A stretch of 25,049 bases of DNA from a virus. This document shows, in pieces, positions 351 to 14,694 of the stretch (position 1 is the first letter of the stretch; every line of letters begins with the position of its first letter). A model generated the notes under the pieces. That model was given only the letters and a program-made list of their open reading frames with translations. It did no database searches and was not told the DNA's origin. The position numbers were made by a program, and so were the translations under genes. The DNA is taken from positions 1-25,049 of the IMG/VR virus record IMGVR_UViG_3300046010_008550; one strand, 5' to 3'.

Positions 351-2186
351 ATGCCACTCCAGAAAATCTTGTTCAAGCCCGGAGTCAACCGCGAGAACAC
401 GCGGTACACCACCGAAGGCGGGTGGTATGACTGCGACAAGGTCCGGTTCCGCCAGGGCACGCCCGAAAAGCTCGGCGGGTGGCAACGCTTATCGGCCAAC
501 ACCTTCTTGGGTGTGTGTCGCTCCATGTGGAATTGGGTCACGCTCCAGAGCGAGAACTTGCTTGGCCTTGGCACCCACCTCAAGTTCTACATTGAGCGGG
601 GCGGCGACTACTACGACATCACGCCACTGCGTGCAACGACAACGCTTGGAACCGACCCTTTCACGGGTAACGGCACAACCACGGTCACGGTAACCGCGCC
701 TTCCCACGGCGGTATTACAGGGGACTTCGTAACCTTCAGCGGAGTGACGGGCACTTACGCTTCGGTGCTCAACGCTGAGTTTCAGATCACAGTTACGGGC
801 GTCAACACGTACACCATCACCACACCTTCCGTTGTCGCAGCAGGTGCAACAGGCGGAGCAGCCGTGTCTGCCGCATATCAAATCAATGTCGGCCCGGAGA
901 CTGAAGTTCCGTTGACCGGTTGGGGCGCAGGTGCGTGGGGCGTTGGCTCTTGGGGGATTGGCACGCCGAGCACGACCCAGACCTCAATCCGCCTGTGGAG
1001 CCAAGCCAACTTTGGCGAGGATTTGATCTTTGCCCCGCGCAAAGGCGGCATCTACTACTGGGACAACTCGGCAGGTGTCACCACCCGCGCAGTGGCGCTG
1101 TCTTCTTTGTCCGGTGCGTCAGACGTGCCGACCGTCAACAACATCGTCTTTGTGTCGGACATCAACCGGTTCGTGTTTTCGTTCGGTTGCAACGACTATG
1201 GCTCCGCTGCTCTGGATCCCATGCTGATCCGCTGGTCAGCGCAGGAAGATGCAGTTGATTGGACGCCTGTGGCCACCAATCAGGCGGGGAGCGTGCGCGT
1301 GTCGCACGGTTCCGAAATCGTGACCGTTGTACAGGCTCGTCAGGAAGTCGTGGTGTTCACCGACTCCGCGCTGTACTCGCTGCAGTACCTGGGGCCGCCG
1401 ATTGTGTGGGGTACCCAGTTACTGGGCGACAACATTTCCATTTTGAGCCAGAACGCGGCTGTGATTGCTTCTGGCGTGGTCTATTGGATGGGTGTGGACA
1501 AGTTCTACGCCTACGACGGTCGCGTGCAGACGCTGCCTTGCGATGTGCGCCGCTACGTGTTCAGCAACTTCAACGCTTCGCAGGCGGGGCAGGTTTTTGC
1601 TGGCACGAACGAGGGCTTCAACGAGGTTTGGTGGTTCTACTGCTCCGCGGGCTCCACGATGGTGGACCGCTATGTGGTCTACAACTACCTTGAGCGCATC
1701 TGGTACTACGGCACGATGGCCAGGACCGCGTGGCTTGATTCAGGCCTGCGGGACTTCCCGATGGCGGCAACCTACAGCCGCAACATCGTCAACCATGAGC
1801 AGGGCATTGACGACAACGAAACGGGCACGCCAACTGCCATCGTCGCCAACATCTCGTCGTCTGAATTCGATATCGGCGATGGCCACAACTTCGGGTTTGT
1901 GTGGCGCATGCTGCCCGACATTACGTTCGAGAACTCTACTGCCAGCGGTGCCACGGTCAACATGACGCTCTATGGGTTGTACAACTCCGGCTCCGGGGCC
2001 GTGGACAGCTCAGGCAAGCCGGTGGTCAGAGGCAACACGTACGTGATTACCGAGGAGTTCACCGGGCAGATCTATACCCGTGTGCGTGGGCGGCAAATGA
2101 TCTTCAAGATCGACTCCAATCAACTTGGCACGACGTGGCAGCTTGGCGCGCCGCGGATCGACATTCGTCAGGATGGTCGTAGATGA
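351..2186 (+). CDS. Virion protein, probable tail/head-tail connector (beta-rich, 611 aa)
   Basis: The protein opens with a segment of the type KPGVNRENTRYTTEGGWYDC followed by CDKVRFRQGTPEKLGGW, which I recognise from structural proteins of many uncultured podovirus-like phages. Residues from about 103 to 185 form a Thr/Val/Gly-rich insertion (GDFVTFSGVTG, then ITVTGVNTYTIT) that resembles the small beta domains of the E1 FCCH-like type found in phage tail proteins. The second half has repeated aromatic beta-strand motifs such as GVVYWMGVDKFYAYDGRV and WWFYCSAG, compatible with a beta-propeller like the P22 gp10 tail hub; that comparison is inference from pattern, not alignment. AGGA at 337-340 precedes the ATG by 10 nt. 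The stop overlaps the next start (ATGA at 2183-2186), so the two are probably translationally coupled. Confidence 0.72.
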   Translation: MPLQKILFKPGVNRENTRYTTEGGWYDCDKVRFRQGTPEKLGGWQRLSANTFLGVCRSMWNWVTLQSENLLGLGTHLKFYIERGGDYYDITPLRATTTLGTDPFTGNGTTTVTVTAPSHGGITGDFVTFSGVTGTYASVLNAEFQITVTGVNTYTITTPSVVAAGATGGAAVSAAYQINVGPETEVPLTGWGAGAWGVGSWGIGTPSTTQTSIRLWSQANFGEDLIFAPRKGGIYYWDNSAGVTTRAVALSSLSGASDVPTVNNIVFVSDINRFVFSFGCNDYGSAALDPMLIRWSAQEDAVDWTPVATNQAGSVRVSHGSEIVTVVQARQEVVVFTDSALYSLQYLGPPIVWGTQLLGDNISILSQNAAVIASGVVYWMGVDKFYAYDGRVQTLPCDVRRYVFSNFNASQAGQVFAGTNEGFNEVWWFYCSAGSTMVDRYVVYNYLERIWYYGTMARTAWLDSGLRDFPMAATYSRNIVNHEQGIDDNETGTPTAIVANISSSEFDIGDGHNFGFVWRMLPDITFENSTASGATVNMTLYGLYNSGSGAVDSSGKPVVRGNTYVITEEFTGQIYTRVRGRQMIFKIDSNQLGTTWQLGAPRIDIRQDGRR

Positions 2187-3559
2187 GCTTCATCATTGAA
2201 GATGCAATCGTCCCTGCGCCTCCCAACCTGCCTCTGGCCCCACGGGACTACGAGTCGCGTTACCACGAGCAGTTTAACAACGTCCTGCGTCTGTACTTCA
2301 ACCGTCTGGACGCACTGCTGAGGCAAATTGTGACCACACCATCCCCCATCCCAATCTCTATTGGAGGCACCAACGTAGACGCCTTCGGGCGCCTGCGGGT
2401 CAGCAACCCGCTGACTTTGTTCGACTCATCCCACCGCTATGCGGACAACAACCTATGGGTCAACAGCATTACCGGCACCGCAGCGGCAACGTTTAACGCC
2501 AATGAAGGTCTGATGGACCTGACGGTTGGCTCGGCCAGTGGCGACCAGATCATTCGGGAAACCATCAAAGTCTTTTCGTATCAGCCGGGTAAAAGCCTGT
2601 TGGTGATGAACACGTTTGTGTTCGGTGAGGCCAAGGCCAACCTGCGCCAACGTGCGGGCTATTACGGTGCGGCCAACGGCATTTACTTTGAACGCGAAGG
2701 CTCAAACAACTACATGGTCGAGCGCAGCAGCGTGACAGGCGCTCCGATCAACACCCGTGTGGCCCAGGCAGATTGGAATCAAGACCCACTGGATGGTACA
2801 GGCCCGTCTGGCCTGACGCTGGACTCCTCCAAGGCGCAGATTTTGTACATGGACATCGAGTGGTTGGGCCTTGGTACTGTTCGTACGGGGTTCATCATCA
2901 ACGGGGCATTCGTTCCGTGCCACAACTTCGACCACGCCAATCTGGTCAACACCACCTACATCACCACCGCCTCGCTGCCGCTGCGGTACGAGATGACCAA
3001 CGTGGCCGCAACGACCGGGGCCAGTACGCTCAAACAGGTCTGCTCGACTGTGATCTCCGAAGGCGGCTACGAGTTGCGTGGCGCGCAGTTGTCTGCTGGT
3101 AACACCATCACAAGCCCCAAAACATTGACCACTGCCGGTACGTTCTACCCCGTGGTGTCGATCCGGCTTAAGTCCACTCGGCTTGACGCCATCGCCATCT
3201 TGACGGCGGTATCTATTCTGGGCATCACCAACAACGCCAACTACAAGTGGGAAGTTGTGGCGTCTGGCACCACGACTGGCGGCACATGGGTGAGCGCGGG
3301 CACAAATTCAGCAGTGGAATACAACATTACGGGAACCTCATTCTCCAGTACCGGCGGGCGCATCTTGGCAACAGGTTTTTTCCAAGGGTCCAACCAAGGG
3401 TCCAACAGCGTGGACATTTTGAAAGAGGCGTTGTTTGCCTCTCAGCTTGAACGCAACCCCTTTACTTCGACCGCCTATGAGTTAACGCTGGCCTGCACCG
3501 CCGCATCCAACGGGGATCAGGTGCTTGGCTCTCTGGACTGGGAAGAGATTAGCCGCTAA
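2183..3559 (+). CDS. Phage virion structural protein (tail/fibre-associated, function unresolved)
   Basis: This 458-residue protein starts inside the stop codon of the preceding virion gene (ATGA overlap). Residues 65-86 contain the motif VDAFGRLRVSNPLTLFDSSH, a hallmark I know from a widespread group of phage structural proteins that carry DAFGRLRVS.P.TLFDS near the N-terminus. The first 60 residues contain an aromatic helix (YESRYHEQFNNVLRLYFNRL) that might attach it to the particle. The rest is beta-rich with no enzymatic motif visible. Its position between the connector-like protein and the internal proteins supports a virion role in the tail or as a decoration or fibre-type subunit. Nothing separates these options from sequence alone. 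Confidence 0.65.
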   Translation: MSFIIEDAIVPAPPNLPLAPRDYESRYHEQFNNVLRLYFNRLDALLRQIVTTPSPIPISIGGTNVDAFGRLRVSNPLTLFDSSHRYADNNLWVNSITGTAAATFNANEGLMDLTVGSASGDQIIRETIKVFSYQPGKSLLVMNTFVFGEAKANLRQRAGYYGAANGIYFEREGSNNYMVERSSVTGAPINTRVAQADWNQDPLDGTGPSGLTLDSSKAQILYMDIEWLGLGTVRTGFIINGAFVPCHNFDHANLVNTTYITTASLPLRYEMTNVAATTGASTLKQVCSTVISEGGYELRGAQLSAGNTITSPKTLTTAGTFYPVVSIRLKSTRLDAIAILTAVSILGITNNANYKWEVVASGTTTGGTWVSAGTNSAVEYNITGTSFSSTGGRILATGFFQGSNQGSNSVDILKEALFASQLERNPFTSTAYELTLACTAASNGDQVLGSLDWEEISR

Positions 3560-3607
3560 GCACCCAAACGACCTAAAATGACTTCAACCTTTTTCTCGGG
3601 ATAAATC
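3560..3607 (+). other. 48-bp gap before the internal virion protein genes
   Basis: This is one of the few gaps in the tightly packed virion block. It contains an A/T-rich stretch (TAAAAT at 3574-3579, then a T5 run at 3590-3594) but no -35-like hexamer at a proper distance and no hairpin before the T run. A GGGATAA element just ahead of the ATG at 3608 may serve as a weak ribosome binding site. I call neither promoter nor terminator here. Confidence 0.3.
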
Positions 3608-6600
3608 ATGGCCACTGCTCAACAAGGGATCATGGCTTTGCCAGAAATGAGCCAACAAGCGGCATCAGCGGCCATCAGCCCCGAGCAGATGGCCGCTTTT
3701 GACCAAATTCGCCAGACCGTTTCCCCCAAGGAATTTTCTGACGAGCTGCTGTCTAGTGCCTCCCAAGCTGACCCCCAGGCGGTTGCTGAGTTCAAGCAGG
3801 CGCTGGAGGAAATGGACGTTCCGGCGGAAGTCCTGGACCTGATCAACCAACTGGTGGACGAGGTTCTGGCCAACCCCGAGAACTACGAGGCCATCAAGCA
3901 AAAATACCTTGCACAGGGCGTCACGGACGACATCCTGCCTGAGCAGTTTGACCCCGAGTTCTTCGCTGCGTTGAACGTGGCCGTGGACCAGCTCCGCGGC
4001 GAGCCTGCAGGCCCCCAGGCCTTTGCCAAGGGCGGGATTGCGGAACTCAGCCCGATTGCCAAGGCCCTGGCCTCCTACGGCCGCAACGGCGACACCATGC
4101 TGGCGCACATCACGCCTGCTGAAGCTCGCATGCTGAAGAAGCGCGGCGGCTCGGGGACCGTGAACCCCGTGACGGGGCTGCCTGAGTTCTTCCTGAAGAA
4201 AGTCTTCAGCAAAATTGGCAATGCCGTCAAGAAGTTCACCCGCAGCACGGTGGGCCGGATTGTCACGACGGTGGCACTGGGCTTCCTTTTGGGGCCGGCC
4301 GCAGCGTCGATGCTAGGGGTCGGAGCGGGGACCGCGGCAGGTGCAGCTATCAGCGGCTTTGTGGGGTCGGCAGGCTCTACCCTGTTAGCAGGTGGCAGCG
4401 TCCGCGATGCTTTGAAGGCAGGCGCTGTCGCGGGGATCACGGCGGGCACAGGGGCAGCCTTGTTTGGGGACATGCCCCTGACCGGCCCCGCTGAAATGAC
4501 TGCTAAGGAAGCTTTCCAGACGCAGGTAGGCAAGGTCGCCAACTTCTTTGACGCGCCGGCCAAGGTCTATACGGAAGCCGCGGGGCCGTCTTTGCCCTCT
4601 CAACCTGAGCTACCGACGATGCCCGGATCGCAAGCTCCGGCTGCCGTAAATGTTCCGGATAAATACGATCTCCTGCCGGATTCTTTTGGGGAAGCCAGGG
4701 CCGTCGAACGTGCGACGACTTCGGGGGTTCCCAGCGTAGGAACTGTTGCCCCTCCGGCGGTTACAGCACCGGCGAGCACCGCAGTGACCGGTGGCACGGC
4801 TGCGCAGCAAGCCGCCGCGGCAAAGAGTCCAGTTCCCACGGTTGGCCAGTCAATCAAAACCATCGGAGAAGGCCTGGGCCTTGGTCAAGGGCCCGCGAGC
4901 TGGGAGACGTTCAAACAGGGCGTGTCTGATCTGTTCGTGCCCCAGGGAGCCAGTCAAGAGGCGATTGATCTGAAGGTCAATGACCTGATGGCCAAGAATC
5001 CTCGGATGCCGTATGCCGATGCGCTCAAGCGAGTTACCGGCCAAATGACACCCAGGATCATGCGCAGCTACGGCCCCATGGCCGCTGCGGGCCTGGGCAT
5101 CATGGGCTTGACGGGGGGCTTTAAGCAGCGCGAAGTGACGTCCCCTTACAGCAGTTTGTTTACAGGCGGCCCGGGCTCCGCGCGCGACTTGTTGGCCCGC
5201 AATCCTTCCTTGTACTACATCCAAAATCTCCCTGGCGTGACCTACTACGGCGGCTCTGTCGTGCCTCCCCCGGGCTATGCCCAGGGCGGCGAAGTGCAGC
5301 ATTTTGCTGAGGGCGGCGAGACGTTGCCTTCCGCCGCTGTAATTGGTCAGCAGGCTGCGCTACAAACTCCGGCAATGGGCACCGTTGCCTCTGCTCCGCC
5401 TGCGGCCACTGCTCCACTGACCCAGGTCGGAATTGCCGCGGCTCCTACCACTCAGGTGGCAACGCCCACGGTCGGCGGCTACAACATGTACTCCCCCGCC
5501 GCGCAGAACATGTACTACGGCGTGGTCAACCAGGGGCTGCTGGGCGGCTACCAGTACAACCCCCAGACACGCCGCAATGAGCCGGTGACGTCGCTGCCCA
5601 GCGTGGACGCTGCGTACAACACGGCTGCCCCCTATACCTCGCTGGTTCCTGCTGAGGCCCGGGCCACGGTCATGCCTCCGTCCCCCATGCCCCGGCGTGC
5701 CCCGATGCAGTTCCCCACTGGGGAGCGTCTGGCGGAGATCGAAGGCAGCTACCGCAGCCTCTTGGGCCGCGATCCTGATGTAGCAGGCCTGATGGCATTT
5801 GGCAGCCCCCAGTACAACCTGTCGATGGAAGACATCCGCGGCATGATGCTGGCGTCTCCTGAGCGGCAACGGTTCCTGGCACAGCAGGCGGCTGCCCAGG
5901 CCCCTGCGCCGGAGGCGGTGGTCAAGCCCATCACGGTGCCGTTTGTCGAGCCGCGCGCCGCGTTGGATCCGTTCTCTGGCTTGTCCAGGATTTCGGCTCA
6001 AAATGTTTCCGCGGCTAATCCGTCTAAGCCCATCATCATCTCGTCTACGGCGCCTGCCGGCTACGACTACTCGGCCGCAACACTTACAACGGATCGCGAG
6101 CGCCAGATCAACGACCTGTACCGCTCCATCCTCAACCGCGACGCGGAGACGGCAGGCCTGAAGTACTGGGCGGGCTCCGGCTTGTCGATCTCTGAGATTG
6201 AGGCTCAGATCCGCAAAATCGCCGGGGACATCGGCGTGCCGCTGACCCTTCCCCAGAATGTGCCGGTGGCCGACGTCTCGCGGCCCGTGACCATTTCTTC
6301 CACAGCTCCGGTGGGATATGACTACGCTGCCGCCCCAGTCACGAACGAGCGTGAGCAGCAGATCAACGACATCTACCGTCGCGTCCTAAACCGCGATGCT
6401 GAATCCGGCGGCCTGAACTACTGGCGGGACAGCGGCTTGTCCCTCCCTGAGATTGAGGCGCAGATTCGCAAAATTGCGGGGGATATCGGTGTCACGGTTG
6501 CCGCCCCGCGGCCCGCGGCCTCCTCTGGTGGTATCTCGACTATTCCCAAGACGCCAACTGGCGGCGTTGTCCAAAGAAACATGGGAGGCATTGCTTCCTT

Positions 6601-6808
6601 GGGCGCAGGCGGATATCCTCGTCGCACGGGTCAAATTGACGGACCGGGGACCGCGACTTCGGACTCCATCCCTGCGATGCTTTCTGACGGCGAATTTGTC
6701 ATGACCGCTAAGGCTGTCCGTGGGGCAGGAGGTGGTGACCGCCGCAAAGGAGCTAAGAAGATGTATGCGCTCATGCATCAACTCGAACGTAACGCATCAC
6801 GGGGCTAA
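3608..6808 (+). CDS. Large internal virion/ejection-like protein with DUF4214-type repeats (1066 aa)
   Basis: An acidic helical N-terminus (residues 1-130) is followed by a stretch ending LKKRGGSGTVNPVTGLPEFF, recurrent in large virion proteins of uncultured podovirus-like phages. Residues about 215-290 are Gly/Ala-rich and hydrophobic, suited to membrane interaction. The middle is Pro/Ala-rich linker with a GGEVQHFAEGGE motif. Near-identical modules at residues 806-877 and 891-962 each contain RQINDLYR.ILNRDAE.GGL.YW, the DUF4214 type signature; a weaker third copy lies near residues 708-754 (SYRSLLGRDPDVAGL). The C-terminus has DGPGTATSDSIPAMLSDGEF, a signature I recognise from phage tape-measure or internal proteins. 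Role inferred: packaged inside the head or tail and delivered with DNA. No lytic transglycosylase motif is visible. Confidence 0.68.
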   Translation: MATAQQGIMALPEMSQQAASAAISPEQMAAFDQIRQTVSPKEFSDELLSSASQADPQAVAEFKQALEEMDVPAEVLDLINQLVDEVLANPENYEAIKQKYLAQGVTDDILPEQFDPEFFAALNVAVDQLRGEPAGPQAFAKGGIAELSPIAKALASYGRNGDTMLAHITPAEARMLKKRGGSGTVNPVTGLPEFFLKKVFSKIGNAVKKFTRSTVGRIVTTVALGFLLGPAAASMLGVGAGTAAGAAISGFVGSAGSTLLAGGSVRDALKAGAVAGITAGTGAALFGDMPLTGPAEMTAKEAFQTQVGKVANFFDAPAKVYTEAAGPSLPSQPELPTMPGSQAPAAVNVPDKYDLLPDSFGEARAVERATTSGVPSVGTVAPPAVTAPASTAVTGGTAAQQAAAAKSPVPTVGQSIKTIGEGLGLGQGPASWETFKQGVSDLFVPQGASQEAIDLKVNDLMAKNPRMPYADALKRVTGQMTPRIMRSYGPMAAAGLGIMGLTGGFKQREVTSPYSSLFTGGPGSARDLLARNPSLYYIQNLPGVTYYGGSVVPPPGYAQGGEVQHFAEGGETLPSAAVIGQQAALQTPAMGTVASAPPAATAPLTQVGIAAAPTTQVATPTVGGYNMYSPAAQNMYYGVVNQGLLGGYQYNPQTRRNEPVTSLPSVDAAYNTAAPYTSLVPAEARATVMPPSPMPRRAPMQFPTGERLAEIEGSYRSLLGRDPDVAGLMAFGSPQYNLSMEDIRGMMLASPERQRFLAQQAAAQAPAPEAVVKPITVPFVEPRAALDPFSGLSRISAQNVSAANPSKPIIISSTAPAGYDYSAATLTTDRERQINDLYRSILNRDAETAGLKYWAGSGLSISEIEAQIRKIAGDIGVPLTLPQNVPVADVSRPVTISSTAPVGYDYAAAPVTNEREQQINDIYRRVLNRDAESGGLNYWRDSGLSLPEIEAQIRKIAGDIGVTVAAPRPAASSGGISTIPKTPTGGVVQRNMGGIASLGAGGYPRRTGQIDGPGTATSDSIPAMLSDGEFVMTAKAVRGAGGGDRRKGAKKMYALMHQLERNASRG
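6023..6238 (+). repeat. In-frame repeat copy 1 (DUF4214-type module)
   Basis: This 216-bp segment encodes residues 806-877 of the large virion protein and recurs 255 bp (85 codons) downstream. Both copies start with S.P..ISSTAP.GYDY and end with EIEAQIRKIAGDIGV. They differ at many third positions and some amino acids, so the duplication is not recent. Confidence 0.85.
6278..6493 (+). repeat. In-frame repeat copy 2 (DUF4214-type module)
   Basis: Second copy of the module at 6023-6238, encoding residues 891-962. It keeps the NDIYRRVLNRDAESGGLNYW core and the closing IRKIAGDIGV. A 13-codon linker separates the two copies. Confidence 0.85.
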
Positions 6809-6810
6809 AG

Positions 6811-8112
6811 ATGGCAACCGATATCAGTACCCAATTTGTCCGCGAAGCGCCTGAAATTGAGGCGCAAAAACTTGCGCTGATGCAAACGGCAAAGGCGCAA
6901 GTCGATGCCATCAATGCAGCAGCGCAACAAGGTCGGTTCCTTGCCCCCAGCTACCAGATTGCTGGTTTCTCCCCGGACCAAGTCCGGGCGATGGAAGCGG
7001 CCCGCATGGGCATTGGCGCGTACCAGCCCTACATGAGTGCGGCCACGCAAGGCGTGATGGGCGGGCAGGAGGTCGTGGGCCGCGGCGTTGAGGCACTGTT
7101 GGGTGCAGACACCCGTCGCCAGTTCTTGGCAGCGCAAAATGCTTTGAACCAGGCGGTTTCTCCTATCCAATCAATGGGCGAAGCAGCGCAAATGGTCCGG
7201 GGCGCGCAACTGGGCGCAGCACCCTTGGCCACTGCAGCAGGGGACATCTCCACTCAGTCCTTTGTGGCTCCGGGCACCGCAGGCTCGTACATGTCCCCGT
7301 ACATGCAGAATGTGCTGGACATCGAGAAGCGCGAAGCGCAGCGGCAGTCGGACATTGCTCGTCAGCAAGAGGCGGCGCAGTTCGCACGTGCGGGGGCTTT
7401 TGGCGGCAGCCGTCAGGCGATTGTGGAAGCTGAGCGCAACCGCAATCTGGCCACGCAGATGGGCGACATCCAGACCCGTGGTCTGCAGTCTGCCTTCCAA
7501 CAGGCTCAGCAGCAGTTCAATCAAGAGCAAATCGCTCGTTTGCAAGCTGCTCAAGCCAACCAACAAGTGCAGCAACAAGCCGCTCTGGCCAACCAGCAAA
7601 TGATGGGTCAGTACGGTCTGCAGGGCGCCCAGCTTGGGCTACAGCGAGCACAGCAATTGGGCAACATCTATGGCCAGCAATCGCAATTGGGCCAGGGCTT
7701 GGCGCAGGGTATCGGCAGTCTGGCGGGCCAGCAGTTCGGCATTGGCCAGCAGTTGGCACAGGGCCTGGGCGCCTTGGGTGGCCAGCAGGCCGCCCTTGGC
7801 GGACAACTTGCTGCATTGGGAGCTCAACAGCAGGGCCTGGGTCAGCAGGACGTGAACTTCCTGTACAACATCGGGGCTCAGCAGCAGCGCCAGCAGCAGG
7901 CTGTTTTGGACGCACAGCGCCAGAACCAACTGCAGCAGAGCATGCAGCCGATGCAGATGTTTGGTTTCCTGTCGGACATCTACAAAGGCGCGCCGACGAC
8001 GCAGATGGCGATGACGCAGCAGACACAAGCGGCTGCCAGCCCGTTCCAGCAAATCGCTGGTCTGGGCATCGCAGGGGCAAGTGCGGCCGCCGCGGCCAAC
8101 AAGCTTTTTTAA
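6811..8112 (+). CDS. Gln/Ala-rich internal virion protein (433 aa)
   Basis: It starts 2 nt after the previous stop. Residues 1-150 are helical. A conserved-looking core reads SYMSPYMQNVLDIEKREAQR, followed by FARAGAFGGSRQAIVEAERN, a combination I have seen in proteins next to large internal virion proteins of podovirus-like phages. Residues about 225-275 are a Gln-rich predicted coiled coil. Residues about 293-345 are a quasi-repeat of Gly, Leu and Gln (GQGLAQGIGSLAGQQ, then GQQLAQGLGALGGQQ) resembling glycine-zipper membrane-inserting segments. By position and composition it is a candidate ejected core protein in the manner of T7 gp14/gp15; that is analogy, not homology. No enzyme motif is seen. 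Confidence 0.62.
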   Translation: MATDISTQFVREAPEIEAQKLALMQTAKAQVDAINAAAQQGRFLAPSYQIAGFSPDQVRAMEAARMGIGAYQPYMSAATQGVMGGQEVVGRGVEALLGADTRRQFLAAQNALNQAVSPIQSMGEAAQMVRGAQLGAAPLATAAGDISTQSFVAPGTAGSYMSPYMQNVLDIEKREAQRQSDIARQQEAAQFARAGAFGGSRQAIVEAERNRNLATQMGDIQTRGLQSAFQQAQQQFNQEQIARLQAAQANQQVQQQAALANQQMMGQYGLQGAQLGLQRAQQLGNIYGQQSQLGQGLAQGIGSLAGQQFGIGQQLAQGLGALGGQQAALGGQLAALGAQQQGLGQQDVNFLYNIGAQQQRQQQAVLDAQRQNQLQQSMQPMQMFGFLSDIYKGAPTTQMAMTQQTQAAASPFQQIAGLGIAGASAAAAANKLF

Positions 8113-8121
8113 GGAATGGCG

Positions 8122-10143
8122 ATGAAAAGCAAGGTGCTTGAGCGCGAGATGTTTGCGAAGCCGCTGTCAAAAGTGACTCGCAACAGCGGCATCATGGAGG
8201 GATTTGAAGATGATGACGAATATGACAGCGAAGATAACCGAGGCGTGGAAGAACTTCCGCCAATGGCTCGCACGCCTCAGAACCCCGAAATCCTGATGAA
8301 CAACCTGCGCGGGGACATGCGGTCCACCGACGCACGGTACCAGGAGCTCGCTGAGATGGTCGGGGAAGACGCGGCCTACAACACGCCTCCCGAAGTGCTG
8401 GCCATGCTGCAGCCCACGCTGGCCGCGCAGCAGGGCATTGGCGCGCTGGGTGCCGGCCCGATGATGCCTCCGGGAGGGATGCCCATGCCTGCTGGCCCGG
8501 GGCCCGCGGCTGGCGCAATGCCGCCTCCGATGCCTGAGATGCCTGCCGAGATGCCCCCTCAAATGCCGCCAGAAATGGCTGCCGGACCGGGGCCCGCGCC
8601 TATGCAATTGGCAGCGGGCGGTATCGCCACGCTGGTAGGAGGCGACGAGACAGGAATGCCGGGCACGATGTCTGTGCCGCAGCAGTTCCGTCACGGCGGG
8701 ATTGTTCAGCATTTTAAAGACGGGTCCGATGAGGAGGGCGTGACCCCGGCAGCTTCTTACCCTCCTGCGTTAGTCCAAGCCGCCCAGCAATGGGCGCAGA
8801 AAATGGCTACGCAACAGCCCGCCGCGGTGCCGGATCTTCGGACCACCATGGCAGCCAAGATGCCTGTCTACCAAGAGCTGCTGGGCCTGGGCCGCTCAAG
8901 AGAAGACATGAAGACGCAGATGCTGCTGGACATTGCCAGTCGCGGACTCGGGTTTGCCGGCAACGTCGATGAGCAGGGCCGTCCTTTGCGCGGCTCATTT
9001 GCCTCGCGCTTGGGCCAGGTAACCCGCACGCTGCCCAACACGATGATGGCGTTGGCGGCGGAACAGCGCAAGGGCGAACTGGCCACCAAGCAGCTTGCTC
9101 TGCAGGCTGCAGAGAAGGAGATTGGGGACATCCGCGAGCTCAACGCCAAGGCGGTTGAGTCGCAGCGCAAGCTGTTTGGCGACATCCTCAAGGAAAGCGC
9201 CAAGGCCTCGGGCCAATCCCCGTTTGGCAAGGGCGACTGGCACTGGGCCGTGGTCAACCGTCCGGGCTTCTTGGCCAGTTACGCTGCAGGCAAGACCACC
9301 CCTGAGCAGGACAACTTGATCGAGTCGGCCATTACGGTGCTCAACACGCCGCGCCAGGAACTGCGCACTGACCCGGTGACGCAGCAGACCACCCAGGTAA
9401 CGGTGCAGCCGATGGTGCCGGACTTTGTGACGGCAGCGCAGGAAGCGCGTCGCAGGCTGAACTTGCCGACAGGCGCGGCCCGCGCACCTGCTCCGGCAGG
9501 GGCTGCCCCTGCAAAAGCTCCCGCTGCCGGGCCCAGTGCGGCACCTGCTCCTGCAGAAGGCCGCATGCCGGAAGAGGGCGCACCTCCCAAGATGCCGGGG
9601 GCTGCGTATGTGTCGGAAGGCCCGACGCTGTTCAACCTGGCCAAGGCTGGAACGGGCCCGATCAACGTCGGTACGGCGTTTGTTGCCCGTGTGCCGATTG
9701 CCGGCGAATTGATTGATGACCCTTCGCAGCCGATTCAGGCGGGGCGGTATTTGTCCAACGCGGCCAACCGTATTGGGCGGGCGTTTGCGACCAACCCACG
9801 GTTTGCTGAAGGCGAGCGCAGGCAGATTCAAGAAGAGCTGAACCTGCTGCCCGGCTTCATTGATCGCCCCGAAGCCTATCAACAGCGCTTGATCGGCTTG
9901 GATTCGCTGCTGCTGGACCTGCGTCGCGGGGCCTACCGCGAGGGCTACCTCAACCGCAACCTGGGCCCGGATACCATCAAGGCGGGCCGTCAGGCAGTAG
10001 AGGAGATCGACCGTGCGCGGGAGCTGCTAGGCGTGCCGCCTCGGGTAACTTCCAAGGAACAGTTTGACAAGCTGCCTGCCGGGCCTTTCTTGTTGATGAA
10101 CAAAAATGGCACCTTTGATCTTCGGATGAAACTCGGGCAATAG
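8122..10143 (+). CDS. Pro/Met-rich internal virion protein (673 aa)
   Basis: Two in-frame ATGs lie at 8116 and 8122. The only good ribosome binding site (AAGGA, 8111-8115) touches the first and is 6 nt from the second, so 8122 is preferred. The N-terminus is acidic. Residues about 111-165 are a Met/Pro/Gly-rich linker, followed by Gly motifs GGIATLVGGDE and HGGIVQHFKDG; the latter resembles GGEVQHFAEGG in the 1066-aa protein upstream. A central helical region of roughly residues 200-450 contains many charged residues, then comes a second Ala/Pro linker (about 452-490). The C-terminal 150 residues look like a folded helical domain. Role in the virion is inferred from location and shared motifs; no catalytic signature is visible. 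Confidence 0.62.
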   Translation: MKSKVLEREMFAKPLSKVTRNSGIMEGFEDDDEYDSEDNRGVEELPPMARTPQNPEILMNNLRGDMRSTDARYQELAEMVGEDAAYNTPPEVLAMLQPTLAAQQGIGALGAGPMMPPGGMPMPAGPGPAAGAMPPPMPEMPAEMPPQMPPEMAAGPGPAPMQLAAGGIATLVGGDETGMPGTMSVPQQFRHGGIVQHFKDGSDEEGVTPAASYPPALVQAAQQWAQKMATQQPAAVPDLRTTMAAKMPVYQELLGLGRSREDMKTQMLLDIASRGLGFAGNVDEQGRPLRGSFASRLGQVTRTLPNTMMALAAEQRKGELATKQLALQAAEKEIGDIRELNAKAVESQRKLFGDILKESAKASGQSPFGKGDWHWAVVNRPGFLASYAAGKTTPEQDNLIESAITVLNTPRQELRTDPVTQQTTQVTVQPMVPDFVTAAQEARRRLNLPTGAARAPAPAGAAPAKAPAAGPSAAPAPAEGRMPEEGAPPKMPGAAYVSEGPTLFNLAKAGTGPINVGTAFVARVPIAGELIDDPSQPIQAGRYLSNAANRIGRAFATNPRFAEGERRQIQEELNLLPGFIDRPEAYQQRLIGLDSLLLDLRRGAYREGYLNRNLGPDTIKAGRQAVEEIDRARELLGVPPRVTSKEQFDKLPAGPFLLMNKNGTFDLRMKLGQ

Positions 10144-10154
10144 TTGGAGACATC

Positions 10155-13100
10155 ATGGCATTGACCGCAGCTGAGCTTGAGGCCATTCGCAAGCAATCCG
10201 CCCCCGTGTCTGGGGTGGTGCCTCCTTCGCCCACGGCGGAAGGTGCTGCTCCAACGCAGTCTGTTGAGGACCTTGGGGTGCCGTTTTACCCCACGGCCGG
10301 CGAGAAAGCCGAAGCTATTGCGGTAGGCGCAGGCCAAGGCGCGGCCAAGGGCACTTCCGTCATGGCCGGCGCGCGCATGGGCGCGGAAGCTGGGCTGCGT
10401 CTCGCGGCGTCTCCGCTGGTGCCGGGACCGGGCAAGATTGCGTTGCCGGTGCTGGGCACAGTAGGCGGTGCTGGATTGGGCTTGCTTGGGGCAGAGGCGC
10501 TCGATGCGCTGATGTTCGACGAGTACAACGCCCGCATGCGCCCGGAAGTGGCGCCTTATCGCGAAGGTGGCACTACCTTTGGGCAGTCCATCGCCGCAGC
10601 TCCTTGGATGTTCTCTCTGCCGGTGATGACCGGTAATCGCGTCTCGCGATTCATCTCCCAAATTGGCGAAACTGCACGCAAGACCCCTGCCACCTTCCTT
10701 GCAGGCGAGACGCTGGCGGGAGGCGCTGCAGGGATTGCAGGCGGCACGGTCTACGCAATTGACCCCGAGGCCAAAGGAACGCGGCTCGCGGCTGAGGTCA
10801 CGGCCGGCGTGTTCACGCCTACGCGGCTGTTCTTCAACGGCTACAACATGGCCAGGGACATGTTGACGTCTGCCCGCGCAGGTGCAGACATCAAGGCCCA
10901 AAACACTGCGGCGGCTCAGCTCCAGAAGATCCTGGAAGAGCAGGGCGAGGACATCCCCAAGCTCATTCGACAGTTGGAAAAGCCGCTGCCGGGCAGTGTT
11001 TCCACGCCGACGTCTGCGCAGAAAACCGGCAGCCTGGTGCTGACCGAAGTAGAGCGCACGCTGGGCAACATGAACCTGAAGTTTGCCGCTGACACCGAGG
11101 CTCAGGGCAAGGAAGCCTTGCGGGCCTACGGCCTGTTGATGGAGCGGCTCAAGGAAGTGGGCACGCCCGAGGCTCTGACGCGCGTGGCTGAGATGCGCGA
11201 CCAGCTCTTCACCCAGGCCTTAGATGCGCGTCTCGCTAAAGCCGACGCTGACGCTGCGCGCAAGATCGTCAAGATCAAGCAGGACAATCCCGCTGCCCGT
11301 GCGCAGATTGGTGAGATTGTCAAGACTGAAACTACCCTGGCCCTGCAAAACGCCCGTGATGCGGAAAAGATGCTGTGGGACGAGGCGATACGCCAAGCCA
11401 CCAAGCCCACAGAGAAAACTGTTCGCATGAAAGTTGAGCGGCCCCCGTCAAACCAGGCCGAGCGACTGGCATGGGAACGCACAGGGCGCCTTCCTATTGC
11501 TGCTTGGGACGAAACTCGAATCGAGCCTCCAAAGCTTATCCCTTCGGCCACTTTCGACACGTTTCTCAAGCGCGCTTCTGAGGTCGGCACCGCTGCCTAC
11601 AACCAGGTAATTCCAAAAGTGGTGCAGGACATCATGCAGGAGTTGGGGGCTACCCGCGCCAACGTCCTGGCGTACAAGTCTGCCAAAAACACCCCTGAGT
11701 ACATCGAAACGGGCGTGGTGAGACTGCCCGCTCGTTACACCGCAAAAGAAGTGGATGTCAGCGAGCTGATCAACTACCGGTCCAACCTCCTGGCCCTGGC
11801 TCGCGATTCGGCTGGTCGTGGCGATGTCAGTGACGCAAACCTCTACAGCACGCTGGCCGATGCGCTTCTCACTGACCTCAACACACTGAAGAATCCTGCG
11901 TTTGACGCGGCCCGCGACTTCTCCCGCGCGCTCAACGACACGTTCACCCGCACCTTTGGCAAGACAGCGACCATCCAGGGCGACGTCGCGCGGACCGGGG
12001 CTGAGCGGCTGCCGGCTGAGATCCTTGTCACCCGCGCGTTTGGCCAAAACGCTGACGTGACCGCGATGCGGATGAACGAAATCGAGGATGCTGTTCGTTT
12101 TGCCCGTACTCAGTACGACCAGGCGGTGCAGCGATTCGGCCCCAAGAGCGACCAGGCACAGATGCTCAAGCCCCTGGCAGATCTGTCTGACCAGAGCGTG
12201 GTGTCCATCCAGGACGCTCAGTCGCGCGTCATGCGCCTCTTGGCCGCTCGGACAGTGGACCCGGTTACCGGCCGCGTTAACCCTCGCCAACTGCAGGCGT
12301 TTGTCAACGAAAACCAGGCCATGCTTGACAAGCTTGGTCTGACCAACGACATGACGGACATTGTCAAGGCCGAGCTCGCGCTCAAGCAGGTCGCTGCAGA
12401 CAACAGCCACTGGAATAAGACGCTGCGCAGCCAGGAAGCTTTTGCTCAGGTGCTCAAGGCCGGGGAAAATCCAACCAACGCTGTGGTGGACGTGCTCAAC
12501 AGCCGTTCGCCGGTGCTGGGCATGCGCAAACTCATGGAGTTTGCGCAAAGCGGTGGACAAACCGCAGTGGACGGCCTCAAGGCCACGCTGATGGACTACG
12601 CCTTTACCAAGGCGGGGGGAATCGACAACTTTAATCCTGAAGCGTTCCGTCGAATCCTGGTCGAGCCGCTCGCCCCCAACAAGCCTTCCCTTGTCAACAT
12701 GATGCGCACCAACGGGATGATTAGCCGAGAGGAGATGAGATCCATCGGCCAACTGACCAAGGCGATGATGCAGGTGGAAGATGCGATGGCCAACCGCCAA
12801 ACACTGGACTCAGTGATTCAGGGCAGTGGCATCGTGACAGACCTGGCGCTTAGGGTGATTGGTTCTAAGGTTGGTTCGACTGCGGCAGGCGGCAGTGGCC
12901 CCGGCACGCTGATCGCGGCATCCGCCGGCTCTAAGGCAATGCGCAGCATCTTCGACAAGATGCCTGCTGGCATGACCCGCGCTGCGATGGAACAGGCCAT
13001 GCGGGACCCTACGCTGCTGGCGCTGATGCTCAAACAGCCCGCCAACAACGCCCAAAGCCTGGGTCTGGCGCGCGATATCACGTCGCGCATGGTGTCCTCT

Positions 13101-13370
13101 GGCGTGCTGCCTGCGTCGATGCTGAACTACCTCGACGCGGCTATCAACCAGCCGCCGGTGGAGCGTCAGCGCCCGACTCAGCCCCCGCGCCAGTCCGCGC
13201 CGCCTACCCGTGGGGTTCCGCCCATTACTCCGGTAGCTGCTCCTGCTTCAGCTCCAGCCCCCGCAGGCGGGGGCCAGCAGACCAGTGCCGCTTCCGGAGA
13301 CATGTACCAAGCTTTGTTCCCTCAAGATCCCATCAGCTCACTGATGGCCATGCAGCCGCGTTCGGGGTAA
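10155..13370 (+). CDS. Large internal virion/ejection-like protein (1071 aa)
   Basis: The ATG follows GGAG (10145-10148). Residues about 53-122 and 184-203 are Gly/Ala-rich hydrophobic segments (for example VLGTVGGAGLGLLGAEAL) that could enter a membrane. Residues about 240-850 are mostly charged helix, consistent with a long coiled or helical-bundle protein. The C-terminal tail (about 996-1042) is Pro/Ala/Gln linker. Size, composition and being last of four large genes in a row fit an inner-core protein such as the T7 gp16 class, but no lysozyme or transglycosylase motif is visible, so the analogy is to position only. It is followed 3 nt after its stop by the Dps-like gene. Confidence 0.6.
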   Translation: MALTAAELEAIRKQSAPVSGVVPPSPTAEGAAPTQSVEDLGVPFYPTAGEKAEAIAVGAGQGAAKGTSVMAGARMGAEAGLRLAASPLVPGPGKIALPVLGTVGGAGLGLLGAEALDALMFDEYNARMRPEVAPYREGGTTFGQSIAAAPWMFSLPVMTGNRVSRFISQIGETARKTPATFLAGETLAGGAAGIAGGTVYAIDPEAKGTRLAAEVTAGVFTPTRLFFNGYNMARDMLTSARAGADIKAQNTAAAQLQKILEEQGEDIPKLIRQLEKPLPGSVSTPTSAQKTGSLVLTEVERTLGNMNLKFAADTEAQGKEALRAYGLLMERLKEVGTPEALTRVAEMRDQLFTQALDARLAKADADAARKIVKIKQDNPAARAQIGEIVKTETTLALQNARDAEKMLWDEAIRQATKPTEKTVRMKVERPPSNQAERLAWERTGRLPIAAWDETRIEPPKLIPSATFDTFLKRASEVGTAAYNQVIPKVVQDIMQELGATRANVLAYKSAKNTPEYIETGVVRLPARYTAKEVDVSELINYRSNLLALARDSAGRGDVSDANLYSTLADALLTDLNTLKNPAFDAARDFSRALNDTFTRTFGKTATIQGDVARTGAERLPAEILVTRAFGQNADVTAMRMNEIEDAVRFARTQYDQAVQRFGPKSDQAQMLKPLADLSDQSVVSIQDAQSRVMRLLAARTVDPVTGRVNPRQLQAFVNENQAMLDKLGLTNDMTDIVKAELALKQVAADNSHWNKTLRSQEAFAQVLKAGENPTNAVVDVLNSRSPVLGMRKLMEFAQSGGQTAVDGLKATLMDYAFTKAGGIDNFNPEAFRRILVEPLAPNKPSLVNMMRTNGMISREEMRSIGQLTKAMMQVEDAMANRQTLDSVIQGSGIVTDLALRVIGSKVGSTAAGGSGPGTLIAASAGSKAMRSIFDKMPAGMTRAAMEQAMRDPTLLALMLKQPANNAQSLGLARDITSRMVSSGVLPASMLNYLDAAINQPPVERQRPTQPPRQSAPPTRGVPPITPVAAPASAPAPAGGGQQTSAASGDMYQALFPQDPISSLMAMQPRSG

Positions 13371-13373
13371 GTT

Positions 13374-13754
13374 ATGACAGCAGAAAAGCTTCTCGCCGTG
13401 ATGTTTCTCAGCCGTGAGGTTGCGCATCGCGTTCATTGGTCCACCAAAGGCCCTGGCAGTTTCTCCCAGCACATGGCGCTGGGGGACTTCTACGACGGGA
13501 TCGTGGACCACGCAGACAAGATTGCCGAGGCCTACATGGGCCGCTACGGCTCGCTGGATGCCATCCCGTTCATGGAGCCATCCAAAGCGCCCACCAAGGA
13601 CAACATCGACGACCTGCTCGAAGATCACATGGACATGATCGAAGAGGGTCGCTATGAAGCGTGCGAGAAAGATGACACGCCCTTGCAGAACCTCATCGAC
13701 TCGGCCATCGAGTTGTACCTTTCCACCCTGTACAAACTGAGGAACCTGAAATGA
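13374..13754 (+). CDS. Dps/ferritin-like small phage protein (126 aa; DUF5856-like)
   Basis: Residues 18-53 read like the metal-site region of Dps: HRVHWSTKG, SQHMALGDFYDG and DHADKIAE. Counting from H21, the spacings to H33, D48 and E52 (12, 27 and 31) equal those of E. coli Dps H51, H63, D78 and E82. The fifth Dps ligand (D67) falls on G37, with D38 next to it and D41 nearby. W22 also matches Dps W52. A C-terminal helix (LIDSAIELYLSTLYKLRNL) suits a four-helix bundle. The protein is shorter than Dps (167 aa) and has no Lys-rich N-terminal tail. I recall a phage family of this kind named DUF5856, but cannot confirm membership. Known Dps proteins oxidise iron with peroxide and protect DNA; a virion or host-takeover role here is inference. 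The stop overlaps the next start (ATGA). Confidence 0.7.
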   Translation: MTAEKLLAVMFLSREVAHRVHWSTKGPGSFSQHMALGDFYDGIVDHADKIAEAYMGRYGSLDAIPFMEPSKAPTKDNIDDLLEDHMDMIEEGRYEACEKDDTPLQNLIDSAIELYLSTLYKLRNLK

Positions 13755-13909
13755 AAAAGGAAGTCTGGGACAAGCCCCGGCCCAAGGGCCTGGCTGCGCC
13801 GAAGAAGTTGGCTCCGGCCAAGAAGGCAGCCGCCAAGAAAATGGCCAAGGCCGCTGGCCGGCCCTACCCCAATCTTGTGGACAACATGCGCGCCGCGAAA
13901 AAGGGTTGA
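13751..13909 (+). CDS. Lys/Ala-rich H1-like basic peptide (52 aa)
   Basis: ATG at 13751 overlaps the stop of the Dps-like gene (ATGA) and the frame ends with TGA at 13907-13909. The peptide is very basic, with a central Lys/Ala/Pro tract (LAAPKKLAPAKKAAAKK) like the tails of histone H1-like proteins and of some betaproteobacterial nucleoid proteins, then a short GRPYPNLVDNM segment. Only two acidic residues precede the Lys tract. Such peptides usually bind DNA without sequence specificity. The coupling to the Dps-like gene suggests joint production. It is the last gene before the terminator of the virion operon. A purely structural or ribosome/RNA-binding role cannot be excluded. Confidence 0.72.
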   Translation: MKKEVWDKPRPKGLAAPKKLAPAKKAAAKKMAKAAGRPYPNLVDNMRAAKKG

Positions 13910-13965: not shown

Positions 13966-14694
13966 CTATGTTTCTCCTGTAGACGTCAAGTCTTTTGGCC
14001 CCGGTTCTGCCGGGGCTTTTTTCTTGGCCAAGTAATCGTCTACACGCCGCATCCACTGGTCCTTGTAGCCGTCAAACTCGCGGCTGCAGGTCACAAACTC
14101 CTGCGTCTGGCCATCCTGGCTGACCATCAGGATGATGCCCTGGCGGATGTTGGTGCCATGCACGGCGTTGTGCGCGGCTGCGTAGGCGGCCAACTGGACA
14201 AAATAGTCCTCAATCCACGCCCGCTGCTTCATTTTGTTGGCCTGCTTGAAGTCGATGATGGACTCCGCATGCCGGTATACGCCGATGCAGTCTGAGGTGC
14301 CTGCGTACTTGCCCGGGTAGTGCAGCGGAATCTCCGCGCCCCAGACCTCTTGGACGTTCGGGAAGAACGCTTCAATGAGCTTGTAGCCCATCCAATAGCC
14401 CTTGGTCTGCAGCCACGACTGGGGCGCCGGCAGCGGCTCGTTGAGCAGCAGGTGCTCGACCACGCTGTGCATGTGGGTGCCCACAGTGGCCGCTTCGTTG
14501 CGGATGCGCTCGGCTTCTGCCTCGCCCACGCGCGCCACCCAGGCATCCAACGCGGCCTTGTCCTTGGTCGCGGACAGGATGGTGGTGACGCTGGGCAGCT
14601 TGTCGGGGCCGTAGGTGCGCCCGCCAGGGCTGTTGTCGTTGCGCTCCAGGCGCTCGTAGCTGTAGCGGGCGTTCAGGGGGATTAGACGGTTCAA
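13966..14694 (-). CDS. PD-(D/E)XK exonuclease, MGME1/RecB-nuclease-like (242 aa)
   Basis: The N-terminus has LPSVTTILSATKDK and W.ARVGE, the opening typical of MGME1-like phage exonucleases. Using the TTG start, nuclease motifs follow in order: GTHMHSVVEH (H74, H76, E80), AEIPL (E121), GTSD (D135), IIDFKQ (D148, K150) and QLAAY (Q167, Y171), which match the H, E, D, DxK and QxxxY elements of the family. Such enzymes degrade single-stranded DNA ends in replication or recombination. Start choice: GTG 14703 abuts AAGGAG, whereas TTG at 14694 lies 8 nt after it and forms a TTGA overlap with the helicase stop, so TTG is preferred. The last codons overlap the + strand terminator. It forms a two-gene operon with the SNF2-like helicase. 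Confidence 0.82.
   Translation of the reverse strand: MNRLIPLNARYSYERLERNDNSPGGRTYGPDKLPSVTTILSATKDKAALDAWVARVGEAEAERIRNEAATVGTHMHSVVEHLLLNEPLPAPQSWLQTKGYWMGYKLIEAFFPNVQEVWGAEIPLHYPGKYAGTSDCIGVYRHAESIIDFKQANKMKQRAWIEDYFVQLAAYAAAHNAVHGTNIRQGIILMVSQDGQTQEFVTCSREFDGYKDQWMRRVDDYLAKKKAPAEPGPKDLTSTGET
13998..14022 (+). terminator. Rho-independent terminator of the + strand virion operon
   Basis: A perfect 7-bp GC stem (GCCCCGG 13998-14004 with CCGGGGC 14010-14016) encloses the 5-nt loop TTCTG and is followed directly by six T (14017-14022). The geometry is that of a classic intrinsic terminator for rightward transcription. It lies inside the last codons of the convergent exonuclease gene. No T run follows in the leftward direction, so it appears one-directional. 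Confidence 0.88.

Follow-up and report, generated by a model that had tools for sequence, protein, structure and literature searches.

Dps proteins oxidize Fe(II), with H2O2 as the preferred oxidant, at an iron site that is common to two-fold related subunits: the histidines and D67 are provided by one subunit, and D78 and E82 by the other. They assemble into dodecameric cages and also contain a short helix in the loop between helices B and C, which is placed at the dimer interface. A lysine-rich tail is not universal among them, and the title of the structure of the Agrobacterium protein (1o9r) speaks of protection without binding.

Dps proteins are already known from phages. Their genes have been reported in Gratiaviridae and other gut phages (PMC8008677) and, near the replication genes, in Lactobacillus plantarum phages (PMC6669764), and protection against reactive oxygen was proposed for both. 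The available text of these papers presents the proteins as DPS or ferritin-like enzymes that help the host, and they are set beside the protein studied here by this description only. Also known is the ferritin reading of one member of the family treated below, gp217 of phage Sajous1, which was called a ferritin on the basis of Phyre2 with a confidence of 96.7 (PMC10892097). For another member, rI.-1 of phage T4, over-expression in E. coli is reported to give a slightly longer T4 lysis inhibition (PMC6832632, reviewing Golec et al. 2010). In the openly accessible literature searched, the family DUF5856 was not found named, and no paper turned up in which rI.-1 occurs together with any two of the terms ferritin, Dps, and phage T4. 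Likewise, the available text of PMC4581121, PMC7283392, and PMC6989608 yielded nothing on the family, DPS being a polysaccharide in the last of these.

Family membership and predicted fold

The window, by which we mean the whole stretch of 25,049 nucleotides analysed here, originates from a 25-kb virus record and encodes a Dps-related protein of 126 residues (Table 1), as compared to 167 residues in E. coli Dps, to which it is 15-18% identical. The gene has four near-identical contig copies, each with differences at 5 of the 381 bases; since these changes alter no amino acid and the encoded protein is identical, the coding status of the reading frame is supported.

Table 1. Features of the Dps-related gene, its putative ligand residues, and its operon in the window. 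Conservation is given for the sets of 23 and 148 homologs.
Feature	Position	Strand	Evidence or content
Upstream genes	351..13370	+	Co-directional; neighbours overlap or are separated by at most about 50 bases; products are two virion structural proteins (PHROG 3287, 1645), one tape-measure-like/DUF4214 protein, one protein with a weak DNA-ejection match, and two that reach no family cut-off
Dps-related gene, DUF5856 / PHROG 858, 126 aa	13374..13754	+	ATG ORF, profile matches, structure model
His18 (position 48), first His of HxxH, helix A	13425..13427	+	His in 22/23 and 141/148
His21, equivalent to E. coli Dps His51	13434..13436	+	His in 23/23 and 148/148
His33, equivalent to Dps His63	13470..13472	+	His in 23/23 and 148/148
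Gly37, at the Dps Asp67 ligand position (fifth ligand lost)	13482..13484	+	Acidic in 8/23 and 10/148
Asp38, position after the lost ligand	13485..13487	+	Acidic in 9/23
Asp48, equivalent to Dps Asp78	13515..13517	+	Asp in 23/23 and 148/148
Glu52, equivalent to Dps Glu82	13527..13529	+	Glu in 23/23 and 148/148
52-aa Lys/Ala/Pro-rich protein, PHROG 34011, pI 10.7	13751..13909	+	4-base overlap with the end of the Dps-related gene; last operon gene
Stem-loop resembling a terminator, with a T tail, downstream of the operon	13997..14017	+	Consensus match only

The protein is a member of the Pfam family DUF5856 (PF19174) by strict membership (2.4e-15; 57.8 bits against a cut-off of 34.6; profile positions 1-94 of 94), which is what a preliminary description of this DNA had guessed. 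It also matches PHROG 858, named “starvation-inducible transcriptional regulator” (1e-15; profile positions 16-128 of 129), and PHROG 3636 (1e-8), and it does not reach the cut-off for Ferritin PF00210 (4.9e-4; 20.5 bits against 24.5). All 27 family members scanned (alignment A3, including a protein identical to T4 rI.-1) match DUF5856, and the window protein is the only one among them that matches PF00210 at E 0.01 or better. The relationship to Dps proposed in the preliminary description is borne out by profile, sequence, and structure matches. The best matches in a PDB sequence search were Dps-family chains, with B. subtilis MrgA at 1.6e-4, while a profile of the 27 members retrieved NapA at 5.2e-5 and reached E. 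coli Dps only at E 0.1. Matches to the window protein were found by tblastn in 464 phage records at E-values up to 1e-3. None of 72 pattern matches in bacterial genomes encodes a relative, in a scan that reaches close relatives only.

The AlphaFold monomer model, based on a 25-sequence alignment, has a mean pLDDT of 95.8 and forms the expected four-helix bundle of the ferritin type, with helices at residues 3-23, 30-58, 78-96, and 102-124. Residues 59-77, which correspond to the B-C loop, are modeled as coil with no helix. The best 50 rows in a Foldseek search with this model were all Dps-family chains, one of them a Dps-bacterioferritin chimera, with a best E of 7e-3. In VIA-align, the best row was Dps2 of M. 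smegmatis (Z 14.9, rmsd 2.2, 124 aligned residues); E. coli Dps scored Z 13.9 and the best non-Dps row Z 13.1. Since helical bundles may reach high Z-scores by shape alone, the fold is convincing mainly in combination with the ligand pattern. The four-helix bundle (Z up to 14.9) and the His-His-Asp-Glu order are common to the window protein and Dps, MrgA, and NapA, and the HxxHW motif is shared with MrgA and NapA. We consider it very likely that the protein has a Dps-type bundle and is homologous to Dps. In a search of the BFVD with the same model, uncharacterised proteins from Fadolivirus (E 1.3e-3) and Pithovirus LCPAC404 (E 2.7e-3) were among the best matches, besides phage proteins.

T4 rI.-1 (NP_049716), for which RefSeq gives the same name as PHROG 858 and the note MobD.6, is a homolog encoded directly behind rI (L115, 1320-1706, minus strand). 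A protein identical to it matches DUF5856 at 5e-33, and the model of that protein (pLDDT 89.9) has Dps2 as its top row (Z 14.0), although YciF/YciE-type bundles (Z 13.0-13.4) count as ties with Dps2 under the rule of the tool; bacterioferritins reach 12.2. The database name looks misleading for this protein.

The window protein differs from Dps in that it lacks the lysine-rich tail, the fifth ligand, and, in the monomer model, the B-C helix. Helix A is predicted to start already at residue 3, leaving no N-terminal lysine tail, and the protein has a pI of 4.8 and a charge of -10 at pH 7. We have not filed it as a Dps, since neither the fifth ligand nor the tail was found when both were looked for; it may still work in a Dps-like manner despite these losses. 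The idea that it remodels the host nucleoid, raised in the preliminary description, is disfavoured by the missing tail and the negative charge.

The putative ligand residues and their conservation

Conservation was counted in two sets of homologs. The first contains 23 sequences: the window protein, 20 tblastn hits, and, added by accession, T4 rI.-1 and Sajous1 gp217. The hits were picked for variety among the best 60 rows each of 464 and 602 matching records, so that the set is not random; it includes some closely related sequences (up to 95% identical in pairs) and the longer, more canonical Dps of LAh_8, and no row was dropped. The second set contains 148 unique proteins from motif-based scans for related loci. 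Since several of the search motifs contain H33, D48, or E52, its counts are biased for the equivalents of H63, D78, and E82, and the set of 23 is therefore the main evidence for conservation.

H21-W22, H33, G37, D38, D48, and E52 are located where the preliminary description had placed them, and the E. coli Dps ligands H51, H63, D67, D78, and E82 (dps, NC_000913) are found in the columns aligned to the window protein. The HW and DH.D..AE contexts are also present in both proteins. At a median pairwise identity of 31%, the only columns that are invariant in all 23 sequences are H21, H33, D48, and E52, which are exactly the four ligands that had been singled out. The spacing of 12, 27, and 31 residues from the first histidine, which had also been emphasized, is indeed shared with E. 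coli Dps, but while the residues are typical of the family, the spacing is not. The two histidines are separated by 9 residues in 17 of the 23 sequences, by 12 in 4, and by 13 in 2, and in the motif-retrieved set a distance of 12 is seen in 6 of 148 proteins, 9 being usual. The A-B loop is thus three residues shorter in most relatives than in the window protein. The His-Asp distance of 15 and the Asp-Glu distance of 4 are constant in 23/23 and 148/148. The pattern H-12-H-15-D-4-E arose in 213 of 200,000 shuffles of the window protein (about 0.1%), a figure that would be indecisive by itself in a large scan; the decisive evidence is homology.

The replacement of the fifth ligand by G37 was confirmed, and this position is variable in the family. 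An acid (D or E) occupies position 67 in 8 of the 23 sequences, among them members from T4, Slopekvirus, Krischvirus, Biquartavirus, and Pseudotevenvirus, and the others have G (10), N (3), or R (2) there; in the larger set the position is G in 94, R in 22, N in 21, D in 7, E in 3, and Q in 1. In the seven cellular Dps chains listed, and in E. coli Dps, it is always D or E. T4 rI.-1 contains all five Dps ligand equivalents (H33, H42, D46, D57, and E61). The listed cellular Dps proteins and T4 RI.-1 have thus kept an acidic ligand that has been lost, with a change to glycine, in the window protein. T4 rI.-1 also differs in that helix A is preceded by about a dozen residues and the A-B loop is shorter by three, whereas the A-B loop of the window protein has a Dps-like length.

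The adjacent D38 was considered as a replacement for the fifth ligand. In the set of 23, the acid has not merely shifted by one position, as position 68 is acidic in 7 of the 15 sequences without an acid at position 67 and in 2 of the 8 with one. The seven listed cellular Dps chains contain EE at positions 67/68 in six cases, so that a glutamate is present there in addition to the acid at the ligand position, and D38 is no convincing substitute. In the set of 148, position 68 is acidic in 89 of 138 proteins without an acid at 67 and in 3 of 10 with one, but these numbers are no test of D38, the 67/68 pair being dictated by the motifs used for retrieval (QHMALGDF, QHEALGEF, and KHKALGEF). To judge from its conservation, His18 is a possible extra or second-shell ligand.

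Gene neighbourhoods and virion-associated homologs

In agreement with the placement in a virion operon suggested earlier, the Dps-related gene starts 3 bases after a 1071-aa ORF and is the penultimate gene of an apparent virion operon, downstream of which there are convergent exonuclease and helicase genes. Further upstream, a 1066-aa protein (window 3608-6808) has a DUF4214 match and, near its C-terminus, tape-measure-like matches.

The 52-aa lysine-rich protein encoded at the end of the operon was considered as a missing DNA-binding tail of a split Dps, an idea that was rejected since the pair is not conserved. Among 54 loci from the first scan, the 52-aa gene is found 3' of the Dps-related gene only in the near-identical L001-L004, and only two of 80 loci with the 52-aa protein (L261 and L320) contain the Dps-related gene, within flanks of up to 3 kb that are in some cases cut by contig ends. 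The 52-aa protein gave no tblastn match in phage records with the low-complexity filter on. It is histone-tail-like, and relatives are encoded by at least 547 IMG/VR pattern matches (547 among the first 600 listed).

In 11 of 22 annotated phage regions with a homolog, the name of the adjacent gene points to a portal protein (L056, L104), to an endolysin, lysozyme, or M15 peptidase (L103, L110, L112), or to rI or lysis inhibition (L105, L106, L107, L114, L115, L346). In the remaining 11, the neighbours are hypothetical or unannotated, or the gene is sited elsewhere, as in nucleotide metabolism; the LAh_8 protein, for example, is encoded among ribonucleotide reductase and other genes. In LIMEstone1 and Sajous1, virion proteins detected by mass spectrometry are encoded nearby, not always adjacent. 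In IMG/VR, the gene is located after a portal gene (L116), between the large terminase and portal genes (L023), before an endolysin gene (L018), and after a tail-fibre-like gene (L201). Of twenty neighbour proteins that were also scanned, hand-picked and not all immediate, 11 fall into head, packaging, connector, tail, or lysis families and 3 into pectin lyase, glycosyltransferase, and lipoprotein families, while 2 gave matches to families of unknown function only and 4 gave none. These neighbourhoods suit a late product in many phages, although not uniformly. In Aeromonas phage 31.2, a gene with a noted similarity to glutathionylspermidine synthase is located three genes upstream of the Dps-related gene (L106, 836-2026), and is possibly another redox function.

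Two homologs in the Ackermannviridae have been detected in virions. ORF78 of LIMEstone1, which is 33% identical to the window protein and annotated as a confirmed structural protein, was identified with 3 unique peptides and a coverage of 28.21% (13.15 kDa; PMC3296691). Sajous1 gp217, identical to it at 107 of 117 residues, gave 10 spectra in mass spectrometry of CsCl-purified virions, and its authors remark that low spectral counts may represent contamination (PMC10892097); no comparison of gp217 with T4 rI.-1 was found in the available text of that paper. Both proteins belong to the same family as the window protein and have the four ligands and a glycine at the fifth position, but their locus differs from the window operon. 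Virion presence is documented only for distant relatives; a location in the particle of the window phage is conceivable, if somewhat doubtful. In LIMEstone1, the gene is clustered with those of four virion proteins of unknown function confirmed by mass spectrometry (ORF80, 81, 82, and 85) in the region ORF78-85 (L057, 74-4345), which is separate from the main structural region.

Possible functions of the DUF5856 proteins

The reading that we prefer, with our confidence evenly poised, is that the window protein is a late-made, tail-less miniferritin that would remove Fe(II) and peroxide without binding DNA. This shortened Dps relative within DUF5856 would be made late, in keeping with a gene that is second to last in the virion operon. 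In an assembled dimer or cage, the two histidines of one subunit and the Asp and Glu of helix B of its two-fold mate would form an inter-subunit site, at which the metal would be iron. The four-ligand site probably binds a transition metal, and the chances that iron oxidation or peroxide consumption is the role of the protein seem to us about equal either way. Since both histidines and the Asp/Glu pair are kept, we expect one of the two iron positions to be preserved and the other to be weaker, and His18 or Asp38 might assist; any ferroxidase chemistry would proceed with four of the five ligands. Fe(II) would be bound and peroxide consumed, or the iron simply withheld, and the phage DNA would be spared Fenton damage during packaging or inside the particle. 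For a protein that lacks the tail and carries a net charge of -10, the closest analogy is the protection without DNA binding in the title of 1o9r.

Several observations speak against the miniferritin reading. The fifth ligand is G in the window protein and R or N in other members, the match to PF00210 is below cut-off, E. coli Dps is reached only at E 0.1 by profile, and the best Foldseek E is 7e-3. The monomer model shows no B-C helix, the homologs detected by mass spectrometry are distant, and 11 of the 22 regions have no portal or lysis neighbour. The lost or variable fifth ligand, the missing tail, the absence of a B-C helix from the model, and the presence of homologs in virions would be consistent with a retired enzyme, whose bundle is a structural or assembly protein and whose site holds a structural metal such as zinc and oxidizes no iron. 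The absolute conservation of four metal-binding residues at a median identity of 31%, and the fact that 8 of the 23 sequences still have D or E as the fifth residue, make this improbable in our view. The virion data have also been interpreted differently for Sajous1 gp217, as an iron-carrying part of the particle that approaches iron-uptake receptors in a ferrojan-horse entry (PMC10892097). We regard this as very unlikely for the window protein, given that in the same paper the phage infected tonB and feoB mutants about as efficiently, that no location of gp217 in the particle was found in its available text, and that the fold suggests a soluble cage.

The neighbourhoods are also compatible with a factor in lysis timing of the kind suggested for T4 rI.-1, which would act late in infection, either at the membrane or on the antiholin pathway, with a metal site that senses redox or iron state rather than serving storage. 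The position of rI.-1 directly behind rI points in this direction, as does an upstream gene named rI or lysis inhibition, in product or note, in six of seven Straboviridae regions, the seventh being without names. Endolysin, lysozyme, or M15 peptidase genes adjoin the Dps-related gene in several phages, and over-expressed rI.-1 extends lysis inhibition. However, that effect is slight and was obtained by over-expression (PMC6832632), portal or terminase rather than lysis genes are found beside the gene in several phages, and RaK2 is reported to have an RI.-1 homolog yet no apparent RI or T (PMC3622015). We therefore consider lysis timing an unlikely function, if a little less so than a retired enzyme.

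Extended to the whole family, the miniferritin reading would make DUF5856 a phage-specific branch without DNA binding and often minus one ligand, with a four-ligand iron site. Its members would guard the packaged genome against iron and peroxide in the virions of several lineages, and in T4-like phages the RI.-1 site would couple iron or redox state to lysis inhibition; as a whole, this is speculative and rather unlikely. For DUF5856, a functionally uncharacterised family with matches in hundreds of phage records, the analysis supplies a testable biochemical hypothesis with named residues. The same hypothesis now covers its T4 member rI.-1, with its reported but unexplained effect on lysis inhibition, and it raises the question of whether phage particles are themselves equipped to withstand iron and peroxide.
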